Below the pieces are notes generated by a model that was not told where the DNA came from, ran no database searches, and saw nothing but the letters and a program-made list of their open reading frames with translations. This document shows positions 16,474-24,550 of a stretch of 64,000 nt of DNA, in pieces. This DNA is from Candidatus Poseidonia sp. Lineage in GTDB: Archaea > Thermoplasmatota > Poseidoniia > Poseidoniales > Poseidoniaceae. The stretch's first letter is position 1. Every line of letters starts with the position of its first letter. The DNA lies in assembly GCA_016778305.1 (NCBI GenBank), contig JADHPT010000001.1, positions 200,457 to 264,456 on the forward strand, read 5' to 3'. The translations under genes were made by a program, and so were the position numbers.

Positions 16474-17499
16474 TCAACGTGAAGCGAGCGTGAGGTTCTT
16501 CCACATCTCTTCTGGTACTTCCATGGCCAAACGAAGGCCACCCATAGCACCGAGGCGAACTGGGTCGTCCACGACGTGAACGTTCACGTCCCCCATATCA
16601 CTGAGGCGGCGCTCGATGAGTGCACCAAGTCCCTTGATTGAGGAACCGCCACCAGCCAACACAATATTCTTGCGGAACTGATCGTGGAATTCCGGGTTGG
16701 ATCCGGCAATGAGTTTCTTGACATTCTCAACAATTGGGTCAACGATTGATTCACATGCACGCTGAATACAGTCGGTGATATCCAATGTCATGGCCTTACC
16801 TTCAATTGAAAAGTCAACCAGAACGGGTTCATCAGGTGCAGAAGTTGAGACAAAGGAATACTGTTCCTTCCATCGTCGAGCCATGTCTTTGGTGATTTGG
16901 GCTCCGTTGTACTTGCTCTGGATTTCTTGAATGAATTGGTTGTCAACATAATCTCCAGCGTATCCTGTGTGCATTTGGTCACCGGGTCCTGGGATGGTCC
17001 CGTAAACACGGCATAGGTCAGTTGTACCGGCACCGATGTCGATGACGAGCGTGTGATTGATCATATCAAGTGCATATGCAACAGCAAATGGCTCAGAGAT
17101 AATCATGGCTGAATTGACTGAACCTGCAGCAGCATCAAAGATAGCTGTCTTGTCGACGTGGCTTGCTTCAGCGGGTGCTCCAATAACAGCAACGACACGG
17201 TCATACTCCTCTGGGTCAGAGAGTCCGATGAGGTGTGTGATGAAGTGCGCGATGTACTCACGGTCTTCGGGCGTATCTTTGATGACACCAAGTTCGAGAG
17301 GTCGGTATAGATTGAGTGCCAACCGGTTTTTGAGTGCTTCATTACCGAACAAGACATCACGCTTGAGGAAATTTTTGGCGATGGCATCTTTGGGTGTACC
17401 AATGACAGTCAATTCCTCAACTTCGTGGCTATCTGAGGAAACCATTACCGAACGGAATGTTCCCAAGTCTATTCCAATATACAATACATCTTTTGCCAT
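16474..17499 (-). CDS. MamK/MreB-like actin-family ATPase
   Basis: 341 residues of the actin/Hsp70/MreB fold. Phosphate-1 loop IDLGT is at 10-14, phosphate-2 DIGAGTTD at 154-161 and the adenosine loop AGGGSSI at 282-288. Several stretches resemble bacterial magnetosome actin MamK more than MreB: GTPKDAI near residue 35, AVIGAPAEAS, GTIPGPGDQ after phosphate-2, and KEQYSFV. No membrane segment is present, so it is presumably a cytoplasmic filament protein. ATG at 17499 is chosen because a TATA box at about 17602 would put the transcript start downstream of the longer ORF start at 17592. It lies after the double zinc-ribbon gene on the same strand and converges with transaldolase. Confidence 0.85.
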   Translation of the reverse strand: MAKDVLYIGIDLGTFRSVMVSSDSHEVEELTVIGTPKDAIAKNFLKRDVLFGNEALKNRLALNLYRPLELGVIKDTPEDREYIAHFITHLIGLSDPEEYDRVVAVIGAPAEASHVDKTAIFDAAAGSVNSAMIISEPFAVAYALDMINHTLVIDIGAGTTDLCRVYGTIPGPGDQMHTGYAGDYVDNQFIQEIQSKYNGAQITKDMARRWKEQYSFVSTSAPDEPVLVDFSIEGKAMTLDITDCIQRACESIVDPIVENVKKLIAGSNPEFHDQFRKNIVLAGGGSSIKGLGALIERRLSDMGDVNVHVVDDPVRLGAMGGLRLAMEVPEEMWKNLTLASR

Positions 17500-17598
17500 A
17501 GGCTCACTGCTCTTCCCATATCGCTGGAGTTTATGAAGAGTACCCAGCCCAAGCATCATTGTACGAAATCCAATACGAGACGATTGACTCATTTCTCA

Positions 17599-17606
17599 GT
17601 ATATAG
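17599..17606 (-). promoter_or_regulatory. Candidate TATA box of the MamK-like gene
   Basis: On the minus strand this reads CTATATAC, a good archaeal TATA-like element inside the 135-base gap between the double zinc-ribbon gene and the actin-like gene. A transcript start about 25 bases downstream (near 17576) would leave a leader of about 75 bases before ATG 17499. It suggests the actin gene can be transcribed on its own. Confidence 0.4.
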
Positions 17607-17634
17607 AACAGGCTACTAAAAGATAATTTACAGA

Positions 17635-18651
17635 TCAGCACCATTCTTCACACTGGTGACAATACCATGCTGCATATTCTGTGTACAATTCTGCCATTGA
17701 TGAACAGGATGTACATTCCTTGAGAGTATCCGTACCGCAAATATCTATCACCATTTGCACGTGATATGCATCATCGATGTTCAATTGTTGGCGCATCGCC
17801 CATAGGAGTTGATCTTCGCTGGGTGAAATAATCCCATCTTCCAGAACCATTTCAACGACGTTTCGATAATCTTGAAGGGTAGAAAAATCCCTTGAATCCA
17901 GTACTACGCCGCCTTTTTCGGCTACGATATCCGTGCCACCAGGGTCATCAACAAAAATGACAAATGAAGCAGGTTTGAGCGTATCATCACGCAGTTCAAA
18001 TGAAATTCGAGCACCTTCCAGATTTGCGTAGACGAGTTTCGAAGATCGATTGATGACATTTGTGATTGAACGTGCCGTCATCTCAGCATTAGGGCCTCGT
18101 TTCCACCCGGTTGGACTGCGTTCATTATAAGCATAGAATTCAGTCCCAATGCCCGGATACTCAAGTCGAATTTCTTCTCCACCATCAAAGCCGTTTGAAA
18201 CAATTGTTATTGCTGCAACTTCCGTTGAGACGATGTTGTCTTCATCGTCAAAACTGATCATCAGGGGTTTTCGCTCTTCGGCAGCAGCGTTGTAATGCCC
18301 TTGCATACCGGTCATCCATTTATCTTCAAGGCGTTGCAGAGATTGCTCTTGCTCACTAGTGAGGTTCTTTTTCCCACCGAGAACATTGGCGAGTTCCCCG
18401 GATGCCATTTCTTCTTTGAATTGCTCAATCAATTCAGCATCTCTTCGATGCGTGGGTGGTTCTGGACGACGGCGTTGTTCAACATAATTTGGGTCCGCCC
18501 ATTCATGGTTGCATGAACCACATTGGAGGTAACCAGCCATGGTCGAATCTTGTGCATTTCCGCCACACCGAGGACAATCTCCTCCCTCAGTATAGCTGAG
18601 ATTCTCTTTGGCCGCATCCTTGCCCTTTCGTAGGCCACCAAAACCCGCCAT
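17635..18651 (-). CDS. Double zinc-ribbon protein with TerB-like helical segment
   Basis: 338 residues, not a named family. It begins with a charged segment and a zinc ribbon (CPRCGG, then CGSCNHEW about 18 residues on), and ends with a second four-cysteine ribbon (CTSC, then CHQC at the extreme C-terminus). Residues roughly 140-255 are beta-rich. A following helical stretch with VLEDGIISPSEDQLLWAM resembles the acidic D-G-x-I-x-x-x-E turn of TerB/tellurite-resistance-like domains. No membrane span or signal is seen. It lies 43 bases after the DUF35 fusion gene and 135 bases before the actin-like gene on one strand. Function unknown; an adaptor role is a guess. Confidence 0.75.
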   Translation of the reverse strand: MAGFGGLRKGKDAAKENLSYTEGGDCPRCGGNAQDSTMAGYLQCGSCNHEWADPNYVEQRRRPEPPTHRRDAELIEQFKEEMASGELANVLGGKKNLTSEQEQSLQRLEDKWMTGMQGHYNAAAEERKPLMISFDDEDNIVSTEVAAITIVSNGFDGGEEIRLEYPGIGTEFYAYNERSPTGWKRGPNAEMTARSITNVINRSSKLVYANLEGARISFELRDDTLKPASFVIFVDDPGGTDIVAEKGGVVLDSRDFSTLQDYRNVVEMVLEDGIISPSEDQLLWAMRQQLNIDDAYHVQMVIDICGTDTLKECTSCSSMAELYTEYAAWYCHQCEEWC

Positions 18652-18694: not shown

Positions 18695-19519
18695 TTAGAT
18701 GGCTCTCGCCTTCAAGCCGTAGCGGATGATGCCTTCTTGTGCATAGATCCTACGGACGACGAGTTCCATTTCCAATTCCATGGAGAGCACTGGTTCTTCG
18801 TCGTCCACAACCAAGAATACTCCCGATGGCCCATCCTTCAAGCGAAGCAACACAGTCGATATACCACCAAGTAACGGTGCACGTATGGAGAATTCTGAAG
18901 GTGCCCCCGCTGCAGAAAGGCGCGTCCAGGATTGAACACTTCCGATATGTACCAGGGGAGTATCTTCTGCGTTGGCACGTTCCTCACCGTCCATTTGACG
19001 CGGAGGCCAGGTCATGCCTCCGGGAACCTTTTGCCCTACCAAGCCAAGACGTGATGCTGCTGCTTCTTCATATTGTGCCACGGAAACATATGCTCCTTGG
19101 CTCACATTTGTGATTTGCATCTCTTCAACCCAAGCACCTTCGATTGCGGCGTAAAATTTAGAATTGACGGGAATGTCGACATCAAACTGGGGCAACGCTA
19201 CCTCTGTACCACGCTGCATCAAGACAACTGTAGCTTCATCACTGAGCAACAAATCCCATTCACAATTATCGAAGGTTGATTCGTCCGCAACCGTGATACT
19301 GGTAGATGAAATGAGTGTTTGCGTATCTATCCCTTCCGGCACGGTCACCATGGTGATCGATTGTTCACTGATACGGTGCTGAACTGCCGCCACTGCGAGT
19401 GTAGTAGCGTCGCTGTCTGCTCCAAAAACTCGCTCACCACGATGGGTGAAAGGTGATTGTACCAGTGTAAATGATGGTTCTGCGTGAAGAAGGTAACCCT
19501 TCCATATAAGCGAACTCAA
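18695..19519 (-). CDS. DUF35 OB-fold protein fused to an HMG-CoA-synthase-like remnant
   Basis: 274 residues. The last 80 or so, ending YGLKARAI, look like the OB-fold of DUF35 acyl-CoA-channelling proteins that partner archaeal thiolases. The first 60 residues (WKGYLLHAEPS, then GERVFGADSDATTLAVAAV) resemble the opening of archaeal HMG-CoA synthase and of synthase-DUF35 fusions. Most of the synthase, including the catalytic Cys region, is missing (fusions are usually near 480 residues), and the zinc-ribbon cysteines normally before the OB-fold are absent. TTG at 19519 overlaps the thiolase stop as TTGA, with GGGAGGG 7 bases upstream; the GTG/ATG-type start at 19552 in the ORF track would overlap thiolase by 37 bases. 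Confidence 0.7.
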   Translation of the reverse strand: MSSLIWKGYLLHAEPSFTLVQSPFTHRGERVFGADSDATTLAVAAVQHRISEQSITMVTVPEGIDTQTLISSTSITVADESTFDNCEWDLLLSDEATVVLMQRGTEVALPQFDVDIPVNSKFYAAIEGAWVEEMQITNVSQGAYVSVAQYEEAAASRLGLVGQKVPGGMTWPPRQMDGEERANAEDTPLVHIGSVQSWTRLSAAGAPSEFSIRAPLLGGISTVLLRLKDGPSGVFLVVDDEEPVLSMELEMELVVRRIYAQEGIIRYGLKARAI

Positions 19520-20688
19520 TTGCGGTCCCTCCCGAATACATGAACTGCACAAGTAGCGCCAGAACCTCCAACATTGTGAGTGAGGCCAATGGAAGCATCA
19601 CGTACTTGACGATTTGATTCAACTTCAGAACGAAGTTGTTTGAAGACCTCAACAACTTGTCCGGTTCCTGTCGAGCCAAGAGGATGTCCTTTGGACTTGA
19701 GGCCACCACTGGGGTTGATGGTTACTGAACCTTGGTTGAGAAGTCCCTCTTCGTTGCGTGCGAATTGACCTCCTGCACCGCGTTCCGCGAATCCTAAATC
19801 TTCTGTTGCCATGAGCTCTGCTATTGTAAAACAATCATGAACCTCTGCAAAGTCAACGTCGTTCGAAGTAATTCCTGCTTGATGGTATGCACGTTTTGAA
19901 GATGCTGCAGTTGCTCGTAATTGAGTTATTGAAGGCCTGTCGTGGAGTGCAAGATGATCAGAGGCAGCTCCAGAACCACGAACCCACACGGGAGAATCTG
20001 TAAATTCACGAACGACGTGATCAGCTGCTAGGATGACGCACGAGGCACCATCTGATGTTGGGCAACAATCGTAAAGCGTTAGAGGGTCGGCTACCATGAA
20101 GCCGTTTGAGGCCTTTTCGAATGAAACTTCTTTTTGGATGTGAGCTAATTTATTCATGGAACCGTGAAGATGGTTCTTAACACTGATATTCACTAAATCA
20201 TCATGCGTAGATCCGTATTCGTGAAAATGGCGTCTCGCCATGAGAGCATATGTGCCGGGAAATGTCAGACCGGCAAGCCGTTCCCATTCAGTATCCCCCG
20301 ATACACCAAGCCAGTAACGTTTTCGTTCAGGGGTTAAATCGTTCATCTTCTCGATGCCACCTGCAACCACGATGTCAGCCTCTCCGCTCTTGATGGCCAT
20401 CCAAGCATCTCGGAAGGCAAAGCCGGACGAAGCACACGCGTTTTCGACGCGACGTACTGGCACGCCATCCATCGCAGAGTGCTCTGTGAGTAATGCCGCA
20501 GTATTGCCAAGTTGAGCGCCGCCGAATGCAATGCTTCCAATGAAGGCTTCATCAACTTGAGAAGGGCTGAAATCTCCGTCAATGCTGCTGAAAGCACGCT
20601 CTGCCGCCTCAGCCCACATCCCTTTCAATCCGAGTGCGTGATTCCCGTACTTGGTTTGACCAGCACCAATGACGGCAACATCAACCAT
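19516..20688 (-). CDS. Archaeal thiolase (acetyl-CoA C-acetyltransferase / SCPx-type)
   Basis: About 390 residues. The active-site cysteine is in ENACASSGFAF, HDCFTIAE holds a conserved His/Cys pair, and NPSGGLKSKGHPLGSTGTGQ is the C-terminal catalytic block. The SCPx-type archaeal thiolases condense two acetyl-CoA into acetoacetyl-CoA in a complex with DUF35 and HMG-CoA synthase at the start of the mevalonate pathway; other family members act in fatty-acid degradation. A DUF35 gene immediately downstream supports the complex. MVDVAVIGAG at 20688 is the usual start; another ATG lies at 20694. It is divergent from kptA. Confidence 0.9.
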   Translation of the reverse strand: MVDVAVIGAGQTKYGNHALGLKGMWAEAAERAFSSIDGDFSPSQVDEAFIGSIAFGGAQLGNTAALLTEHSAMDGVPVRRVENACASSGFAFRDAWMAIKSGEADIVVAGGIEKMNDLTPERKRYWLGVSGDTEWERLAGLTFPGTYALMARRHFHEYGSTHDDLVNISVKNHLHGSMNKLAHIQKEVSFEKASNGFMVADPLTLYDCCPTSDGASCVILAADHVVREFTDSPVWVRGSGAASDHLALHDRPSITQLRATAASSKRAYHQAGITSNDVDFAEVHDCFTIAELMATEDLGFAERGAGGQFARNEEGLLNQGSVTINPSGGLKSKGHPLGSTGTGQVVEVFKQLRSEVESNRQVRDASIGLTHNVGGSGATCAVHVFGRDRN

Positions 20689-20806
20689 GAACATGCGATG
20701 GGGTGGAGGCATTTCATACACTCGCTTGTTTCAAGTGCAACCGTATGTGATTTCTTTGTTGTTTTAACCCGCAGGGTTCTTGAATAGGTTGCGCTCCCGT
20801 CGGATT

Positions 20807-21499
20807 ATGCTACGCCAATGCAGAAGCCACGGACATTTTTCCGGAACGAATTGCCCAGTCTGTAACGACGAGGGGAAATTCATCATGAGCGATCGAGAAG
20901 CAAATTCATTGGGGCGTATACTGGCCCTCGTTTTGCGACACGCACCCGAAAAATTTGGTGTTGATATGGATATCAACGGATGGGTAAACTCTCGTGAACT
21001 ATCAGAAGCGATCGCTAAGCAGCGTCGTCACTACCATTGGCTACGAGCATGGCATTTTGAGGCCATTGCAAACGCAGATGAGAAGGGACGTTACCAAGTG
21101 GAAAATGAAATGATGAGGGCCACCTATGGCCATTCAATCGAATTGGATTTGGACCTCCCAACCGATGATATTCCTGAAGCACTCTATTACCCCTGCGAAA
21201 CTGACCAAGTTGAAACGCTTCTCGAATTTGGAATTACTGCAGGTGACCGAAAGAACGTTCACCTGTCACGCTCCATTCGCAACGCTATGGATGCTGGACA
21301 TGTTCGTATTCACCGCCCCGCCATTCTTGAGGTGGATACCGCACGTGCTATCGCCGATGGCCAGACAATTTACAGGGCAGGTACAACTGTATTCCTCGCA
21401 GACGAAGTCCCCGGCGAATATCTCTACCAAGTCGAAGAGACTGATCCAATGATCGTTGAGACCGTTGAAGAATGGACTCGGCTCGAAGAAGAAGAGTGA
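20807..21499 (+). CDS. kptA: RNA 2'-phosphotransferase (Tpt1/KptA), archaeal form with zinc finger
   Basis: About 230 residues. ATG 20807 begins LRQCRSHGHFSGTNCPVC, the N-terminal Cys/His zinc finger typical of archaeal KptA and absent from most bacterial ones, so this start is preferred over 20780. The core follows: LGRILALVLRHAPEKFG, then NGWV, HLSRS and YRAG, supplying the conserved Arg-His-Arg-Arg set. The enzyme transfers a 2'-phosphate from RNA to NAD+, giving ADP-ribose cyclic phosphate. In archaea, where tRNA ligation leaves no such phosphate, its natural substrate is unclear. It is divergent from thiolase and converges with a small zinc-ribbon gene. Confidence 0.92.
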   Translation: MLRQCRSHGHFSGTNCPVCNDEGKFIMSDREANSLGRILALVLRHAPEKFGVDMDINGWVNSRELSEAIAKQRRHYHWLRAWHFEAIANADEKGRYQVENEMMRATYGHSIELDLDLPTDDIPEALYYPCETDQVETLLEFGITAGDRKNVHLSRSIRNAMDAGHVRIHRPAILEVDTARAIADGQTIYRAGTTVFLADEVPGEYLYQVEETDPMIVETVEEWTRLEEEE

Positions 21500-22798: not shown

Positions 22799-24550
22799 AT
22801 GTCGGGTTATAGGATTGAGGATGTTCCAAGCATTAACCTTGATGCTGGACAGGTTGAAATCCTCTCTGAACATGATGAACATCAAGCAGCGCTCATGGCT
22901 GAGGCTCTCATTCATGTTGATGAACAGGACAATGTCATCGGACCCGTCTCTAAAATTGACGCACACCAAGGAGCGGGTGTCTACCATCGAGCATTCAGTG
23001 TACTCTTATTCAATTCAGAGGGAAAACTGCTCCTCCAACAACGTTCAAGTGACAAAGTTACATTTCCAAATGTTTGGGCGAATTCCTGCTGCTCACACCC
23101 ACTTCATTCCGATGAGGAATTGAACGATGTAGACTACATTGGAACAAAGCGGGCTGCAATTCGTAAGCTTGAGCAGGAATTGGGAATTAATCCTTCATCA
23201 ATTGATATTGATGATTTTGTATTCATGACAAAAATGCGTTACTCCGCACGAATGAATCCGGAATGGATAGAGAGAGAACTCGACCACATCCTGATGCTAA
23301 CTGCTGATGTAGAATTGAAGCCAAATCCAAACGAAATCGCAGCGGTGCGCTGGGTTGATTTTGATGAGATGGAAGCCATGCTACTCGAAGAACGTGAACC
23401 TGATGAGGCAATTGCCCCGTGGTTTCGATGCATTGCTGCTCGCATCATGACCGAAGAATGGTGGACTCACCACCACGATCGCGACACACTTGTGAAGATG
23501 CGTGATGAAGACATTCATGACATGGGAGATGTAACACACATGCTACCAAATGCGGAAGGAGCCGACCTTTTGACATCGATCATGGAGGTCAAACCCTTGA
23601 TCGAACAACGAATTGAAAACAGTTTGCGTGCATCTCGTCATGAACGATTAGGCAATGCCATGATGCACCTCATTGAAGGTGGTGGAAAGCGTATGCGGGC
23701 AACACTCCCCTGGCTTGTTGCAAAAGCAGTCGGCGATTCCCATTCTGGGCTCCTCGACATTGGTGCTGCAATTGAAACCGTTCACAGTTTTACACTCGTG
23801 CATGACGATATCATGGACGATGATGAGATTCGTCGAGGACGGAATGCGGTCCATGTTGAATATGGAATGCCTACAGCCATCAATGCAGGTGATGCAATGC
23901 TCGCAATTGCCTTTGAACGATTGGTCATGGCTGAAAATCTTGAACCAGAAGATGTTGCACCTCTTGTCAATAGAATCGCTTGGATGGTTCGACGTGTGAG
24001 CGAAGGCCAACAAATGGATATTGAGTTTGAAGAACGCCTTGATGTTTCAGAAGAAAATTACATCGAAATGATTGAAGGTAAAACAGCGGTGATGTTTCAA
24101 ATCTGCTCTGAAATAGGTGCACGGCTATCTGGTGGAGGCCAAGAAACGATTGACCTCATGGCGCAGTGGGGCCTTGCATTGGGATTGTGTTTCCAACTGA
24201 TGGATGACCTCATTGACATCTTATCAGATTCAGAAACATTGGGAAAACCCGCTGGTTCCGACATCGCTCAAGGCAAACGCACGTTGATGGTAATTCACGC
24301 ACTTGATCAGCCCGATGGACCAGTAAAGGAGCGCTTGTTGAATGTTCTCGGCAAAGGGGAATCCGTAACCCCTGAGGGCCTCAAAGACGGTTTAGCAGCC
24401 CTTGAAGAATTAGGTTCGATTCAATATGCTCGCTCCAGAGCTGAATCCTATCATGCAAAGGCCCATGAATGCCTTGACATGTTAGGAGAAGGCCCAGCCC
24501 TCGTCGCTTTAAGAGAACTTACTGATTTCCAACTTGCTCGGATTCATTGA
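22799..24550 (+). CDS. Fusion: type 1 IPP isomerase + geranylgeranyl-type prenyl diphosphate synthase
   Basis: 583 residues with two complete enzymes. Residues 1 to about 235 are a Nudix-fold type 1 isopentenyl diphosphate isomerase: ANSCCSHPL holds the catalytic Cys98, EWIERELDH the metal-binding/catalytic Glu pair (158 and 160), and WWTHHH lies near its end. Residues about 250-583 are a trans-prenyl synthase: GGGKRMR at 295-301, first Asp-rich motif DDIMDD from 336, and second motif DDLID from 469. Together they would isomerise IPP to DMAPP and extend it to the C20 (or C15) chain for ether lipids. No stop or frameshift separates the halves. It follows isopentenyl phosphate kinase. Chain length is inferred only. 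Confidence 0.92.
   Translation: MSGYRIEDVPSINLDAGQVEILSEHDEHQAALMAEALIHVDEQDNVIGPVSKIDAHQGAGVYHRAFSVLLFNSEGKLLLQQRSSDKVTFPNVWANSCCSHPLHSDEELNDVDYIGTKRAAIRKLEQELGINPSSIDIDDFVFMTKMRYSARMNPEWIERELDHILMLTADVELKPNPNEIAAVRWVDFDEMEAMLLEEREPDEAIAPWFRCIAARIMTEEWWTHHHDRDTLVKMRDEDIHDMGDVTHMLPNAEGADLLTSIMEVKPLIEQRIENSLRASRHERLGNAMMHLIEGGGKRMRATLPWLVAKAVGDSHSGLLDIGAAIETVHSFTLVHDDIMDDDEIRRGRNAVHVEYGMPTAINAGDAMLAIAFERLVMAENLEPEDVAPLVNRIAWMVRRVSEGQQMDIEFEERLDVSEENYIEMIEGKTAVMFQICSEIGARLSGGGQETIDLMAQWGLALGLCFQLMDDLIDILSDSETLGKPAGSDIAQGKRTLMVIHALDQPDGPVKERLLNVLGKGESVTPEGLKDGLAALEELGSIQYARSRAESYHAKAHECLDMLGEGPALVALRELTDFQLARIH

Follow-up and report, generated by a model that had tools for sequence, protein, structure and literature searches.

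The gene at positions 16474 to 17499 (minus strand) of the window, i.e. the whole 64,000-nucleotide stretch of archaeal DNA that was analysed, encodes a real MamK-type actin, as shown by its sequence and predicted fold. This protein (MamK-A) is one of two ancient paralogues, A and B, that are each accompanied by fixed operon partners, and both operons were lost once, on one branch of f2, the Poseidoniales family other than that of the window (f1). The second paralogue, the order-wide occurrence, the fixed operon partners and the joint loss are new. In magnetotactic bacteria, MamK is the filament that lines up magnetic particles; no such particles are known from the Marine Group II archaea, to which the window probably belongs. 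The following features of the window were considered:

16474–17499, minus strand: MamK-A, 341-residue MamK-type actin, paralogue A
17530–17537, minus strand: TATA-like element TTCATAAA (consensus about TTSATAWR), 38 nt ahead of the MamK-A ATG
17601–17609, minus strand: TTCTATATA, the box named earlier (at about 17600), a weaker promoter candidate
17635–18651, minus strand: F3, uncharacterised 338-residue protein with CxxC zinc-ribbon-like motifs at its N- and C-terminus, directly upstream of MamK-A
18695–19552, minus strand: F25, 285 residues, context outside the core unit, without a Pfam match and found only in loci with the F27 thiolase
19516–20721, minus strand: thiolase-type gene (Pfam thiolase domains), left-hand context marker of the A locus

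The translated open reading frame contains all the motifs quoted in the sequence-only reading of this DNA (GTPKD, AVIGAPAEAS, DIGAGTTD, GTIPGPGDQ, KEQYSFV and AGGGSSI), and the conserved motif positions G9, D11, G13-T14, E136, D154 and G156-D161 are intact. The start at 17499 is right, because most of the orthologues examined are ORFs of 341 to 345 residues that begin at the same position; an in-frame upstream ATG at 17592 was rejected as the start, since it is not conserved among orthologues. Among the NCBIfam models, MamK (NF040964) was the best actin model by a wide margin (368.6 bits, E = 2.7e-110), followed by BeeR (216 bits), MreB (96), salactin (63) and DnaK (15). The curated cut-off of NF040964 (400 bits) lies above the score of MamK-A, and no match exceeded it across the 194 Poseidoniales genomes. 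Scores were likewise below the cut-offs of the NCBI mreB model (85.6 versus 365.75 bits), the BeeR equivalog (216 versus 530), the NCBI salactin model (63 versus 400) and Pfam Volactin (33.5 versus 35); the broad Pfam models MreB_Mbl (97 bits) and salactin (54.9 versus a cut-off of 27.1) do match the protein, and the ParM model gives 13 bits.

The solved structures closest to MamK-A are the MamK chains 5ljw (E = 4e-76), 5jyg and 5ljv, followed by BeeR (8r2n) and then by MreB. Structure prediction, which the sequence-only reading had proposed as a check, gave an AlphaFold2 model (pLDDT 90.2, pTM 0.87) whose fold is closest to MamK: the top three Foldseek matches were MamK (5ljv, the best match, and 5ljw), with BeeR next and MreB lower (TM-score of 0.88-0.92 and 39% identity to 5ljv). 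Phylogenies, proposed for the same purpose, were inferred from 38 to 66 bacterial MamK-like proteins together with MreB, BeeR being included in the first tree and DnaK left out. The MamK-type set (with BeeR in the first tree) was separated from MreB by a long branch (100/100). The assignment to the MamK type rather than to MreB or DnaK is thus upheld by profile scores, Foldseek and, for MreB, the tree, and the firm grouping with MreB or DnaK that the sequence-only reading had named as refuting it did not appear. The A proteins form a clade (100/99); the B proteins form one in the quick tree (97), with weak values in the careful tree (55/36). MamK-A thus grouped as anticipated with MamK-type proteins, but the archaeal A and B proteins fall outside the sampled bacterial clade that includes the SG225.bin14 protein, MamK of AMB-1 and others (100/99), in a bacterial set made of the 80 loci nearest to SG225, so that the sampling is biased, which bears on the root and on the direction of transfer.

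The presence of a MamK-like actin in an archaeon, as originally put forward, is therefore confirmed, but not as a lone gene. The genome of the window (1.9 Mb, 33 contigs) encodes a second MamK-type paralogue, B, which is 48% identical to MamK-A (L002, contig G000:C13), and the 39 copies examined form two sets, A with 75-100% and B with 45-48% identity to the window gene. MamK-A is 75-100% identical over 18 orthologous loci from the two families, and the duplication that produced A and B predates the split of f1 and f2. For each family 97 genomes were sampled (194 in total), and MamK-type genes were found in all 97 f1 genomes and in 21 of the 97 f2 genomes (genera g5, g7, g9 and g21), the clades with MamK being those with larger genomes. 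Two f1 genomes (G002 and G083) lack F3 and have only a B-type MamK match. The absence of MamK from three g5 genomes is likely due to assembly gaps, since flanking markers are missing or at a contig edge (G026 lacks the F5 marker and has F7 at a contig edge, G084 lacks both markers, and G143 lacks F7). Published genome sizes of the two Poseidoniales families are about 1.9 and 1.4 Mb (PMC6864105), and f1 is inferred to correspond to MGIIa of Marine Group II/Poseidoniales. In the rest of the phylum sample, a clear MamK-type member was found in one genome only (G269, Thermoplasmata archaeon SG225.bin14).

The scan of related genomes for conserved neighbours, also proposed with the initial description, identified partners at both sites. 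F3 directly precedes MamK-A in 18 of 18 A loci, both genes being on the minus strand in the window. Pfam gave only weak matches for this protein (zinc ribbon, TerB), and its AlphaFold2 model (pLDDT 72) had no meaningful match in Foldseek. The thiolase occurs at its A-locus position in loci both with and without MamK-A. Further along the window, a gene for an RNA 2'-phosphotransferase (20780–21499, plus strand; Tpt1/KptA family, PF01885) keeps its position in the A loci of the order, and a 583-residue fusion of a NUDIX domain (likely isopentenyl-diphosphate isomerase) with a polyprenyl synthetase (22799–24550, plus strand) has a protein of similar length at the same position in most of the loci examined.

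A TATA-like box at about 17600 had been taken to suggest independent expression of MamK-A. Judged by eye, each of the 18 A genes has a TTSATAWR-like element some 35-50 nt ahead of its start, so that MamK-A may be served by a promoter of its own besides lying downstream of F3; the conserved element is nevertheless the one at about 17535 (17530–17537), and the box at 17601–17609 has a CTATAG-like counterpart in only part of f1. In part of this family a near-palindromic sequence, TTCTATAGA, lies just after the F3 stop codon, and it corresponds to TTCTATATA in the window.

At the B loci, the gene order is F2 > MamK-B > F1, with F1 present in 21 of 21 loci and F2 in 20 of 21 (the exception being a contig edge); F2 looks split in L101. 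F2 has a Peptidase_S8 domain (Pfam), and inspection of its sequence points to a signal peptide and a single transmembrane segment at the C-terminus; it is thus a predicted exported, membrane-anchored subtilase, whose link to MamK-B may be no more than a common promoter. The coiled-coil protein F1, of about 420 residues, has no Pfam match; in an alignment of 14 F1 sequences from the two families, mean column identity is 92-93% for residues 241-300.

The partners follow the actins in their distribution. In f2, F3 was found in 20 of the 21 genomes with a MamK-type gene versus none of the 76 without, and full-length F1 in 17 of 21 versus 1 of 76. At the A site of eight MamK-negative genomes the order is F5 - thiolase - (F11) - F12, i.e. 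F3 and MamK-A are both gone and the order is otherwise intact. At the B site of many MamK-negative genomes F14 and F7 still flank an N-terminal stump of F1 (141-183 residues), F2, MamK-B and the F1 core being absent. Such stumps were recorded in L207, L209, L210, L212-L218, L243, L244 and L247, and their persistence in genomes without MamK-B suggests a MamK-independent role of the F1 N-terminus. In a tree of eight flanking proteins, the eight MamK-negative genomes form one clade (100/100) nested in f2; both operons were lost once, on this branch. Since this is one event, the co-occurrence counts are not independent evidence of function; the joint loss of the two operons in itself suggests a joint function.

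MamK-A resembles the MamK of magnetotactic bacteria (5ljv, 5ljw, 5jyg) in predicted fold and nucleotide-binding motifs, at about 39% identity, but scores below the MamK cut-off, branches outside the bacterial clade and has no recognised magnetosome genes nearby; the archaeal system moreover consists of two paralogues with unrelated partners (F3, F1 and F2). MamK-like actins are also common among bacteria without known magnetotaxis (Nitrospirota, Desulfobulbaceae, Acidobacteriota, Planctomycetota), and MamK likeness therefore does not imply magnetosomes. These bacterial proteins are about 40-46% identical to MamK-A and are often coupled to a gene for a membrane-anchored envelope hydrolase. About 30 of 65 bacterial MamK-like genes directly follow a membrane-anchored gene of cluster C1 (loci L117-L192; the one member tested is an Amidase_3 N-acetylmuramoyl-L-alanine amidase), and in several Nitrospirota loci a response-regulator-SPOR protein (one tested) is encoded downstream of the MamK-like gene. 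MamK-like actins thus appear repeatedly beside membrane-anchored envelope hydrolases, which by analogy may parallel the archaeal subtilase F2. The bacterial loci differ in that the hydrolase is a peptidoglycan amidase instead of a subtilase and the actins form a separate clade, and no homologues of F1 or F3 were seen in the bacterial MamK-like neighbourhoods examined.

BeeR of Verrucomicrobiota (8r2n), a MamK-related actin from non-magnetotactic cells, is the second-closest model and fold to MamK-A (31% identity), which lacks the 30-50-residue N-terminal extension of BeeR (PMC11929497). The haloarchaeal actins salactin, reported as closest to MamK (PMC10746226), and Volactin share an archaeal origin with MamK-A, which is nevertheless under the NCBI salactin and Pfam Volactin cut-offs. 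The MamK-like protein of SG225.bin14 (L102/L113/L115) is also archaeal, its contig carrying a Kae1/TsaD-type gene (PF00814) of archaeal appearance, and is 45% identical to MamK-A; it differs in scoring above the MamK cut-off (435 bits) and in being the only match found in its genome. Directly after it lies a 618-residue coiled-coil ORF (L113:9423-11279, plus strand), which was rejected as an F1 homologue by profile comparison. Three IMG/VR contigs catalogued as viral (L195, L196 and L197) encode MamK-like actins that are 40-46% identical to the SG225 protein.

From these sequences and models, A and B are tentatively interpreted as ancient MamK-type, ATP-driven filament actins of an envelope-linked positioning cytoskeleton that would also comprise F3, F1 and F2 in this marine archaeal order, a reading to which we give a little less than an even chance. 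MamK-A and MamK-B would likely polymerise with ATP, as expected from their family and from the intact nucleotide motifs. Operon structure and co-loss suggest that the zinc-ribbon protein F3 may be a dedicated adaptor or regulator of MamK-A, and that the coiled-coil protein F1 may bind MamK-B filaments through its near-invariant core. The F1-filament assembly would be tied to the membrane zone that holds the F2 subtilase, and the system could hold in place the machinery for surface processing or for other envelope tasks in a small, coccoid cell, which is the least certain step. An envelope task is thus proposed instead of magnetosomes, archaella or an FtsZ ring, and for this role the bacterial amidase context may serve as an analogy only. 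Small coccoid cells are reported for both subgroups (PMC6864105), and the lack of a visible effect on cell shape counts against this reading.

Other functions were weighed against the same data. A cytokinesis or separation factor acting beside FtsZ, as might also hold for the bacterial relatives encoded beside septal amidases and SPOR proteins, would agree with that bacterial context and with the membrane-anchored surface protease of operon B, but is judged unlikely, no division gene being recognised in either operon and FtsZ-family genes occurring in 193 of 194 genomes, whether MamK is present or not. MamK is therefore neither a substitute for FtsZ nor its constant companion, and replacement of FtsZ was rejected. 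It is rather improbable that the filaments position an intracellular body (vesicle, storage granule or other compartment) as a direct MamK analogue: neither locus has a recognised compartment or magnetosome gene nearby and no such body was found described for these archaea in the literature searched, although the sequence is of MamK type, the MamK clades are those with larger genomes, and the distribution, if the clades correspond, resembles the one published for the degradation of algal oligosaccharides, in MGIIa and basal MGIIb (PMC6336850).

Polar organisers position archaella in other archaea, and filaments placing archaellar motors would fit the occurrence of archaellin (PF01917) in almost all f1 and some f2 genomes, every f1 genus having both archaellin and MamK, as well as the broadly similar published distribution of the archaellum (PMC6336850, PMC6461757). 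The association in f2 is real but weak (archaellin in 14 of 21 genomes with MamK versus 20 of 76 without) and is broken by g4 and g20, which have archaellin without MamK (17 of 19 genomes), and by g7, which has MamK without archaellin (4 of 4 genomes in the PF01917 search), so that this link is largely refuted and such a function very improbable. Actins of unknown role often prove to be segregation filaments, and MamK-like genes are carried by the three IMG/VR contigs; a ParM-like actin that segregates the DNA of a mobile element is nevertheless extremely unlikely, given the very low ParM score and the fixed chromosomal positions that the A loci and almost all B loci hold between conserved housekeeping genes across the order. 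That MamK-A is a true magnetosome MamK gained by gene transfer and still used in magnetotaxis is hardly credible and, as far as sequence allows, refuted: family resemblance alone speaks for it, against the sub-threshold score and a position outside the clade with the magnetotactic sequences. Gene order and selective Pfam scans recognised no magnetosome genes within about 8 kb of either locus, which extends to both sites the original remark that nothing around the gene suggests magnetosomes, and with the wrong tree branch led to the rejection of a magnetosome function.

A broader form of the envelope-linked cytoskeleton, which is possible but rather doubtful, would be a two-component MamK-type system specific to this archaeal order, in which A and B might co-assemble or divide labour, served by an adaptor peculiar to the order (F3) and by an ultraconserved coiled-coil binder (F1) that is tied to a surface protease of the membrane. 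Because the archaeal proteins branch off outside the bacterial MamK radiation as sampled, envelope organising by MamK-type filaments would in this two-component reading be older than the recruitment of one bacterial branch to magnetosomes.

If these organisms belong to Marine Group II, as is probable, they rank with the most abundant archaea in surface ocean water, for which no cytoskeletal actin was found reported in the literature searched. A conserved MamK-type pair with exclusive partners, together with a clade that lost all of them, allows direct tests of how MamK arose and of what MamK-like filaments do outside magnetotaxis. Concrete candidates for proteins that bind actin in an archaeal cytoskeleton are F3 and the core of F1.
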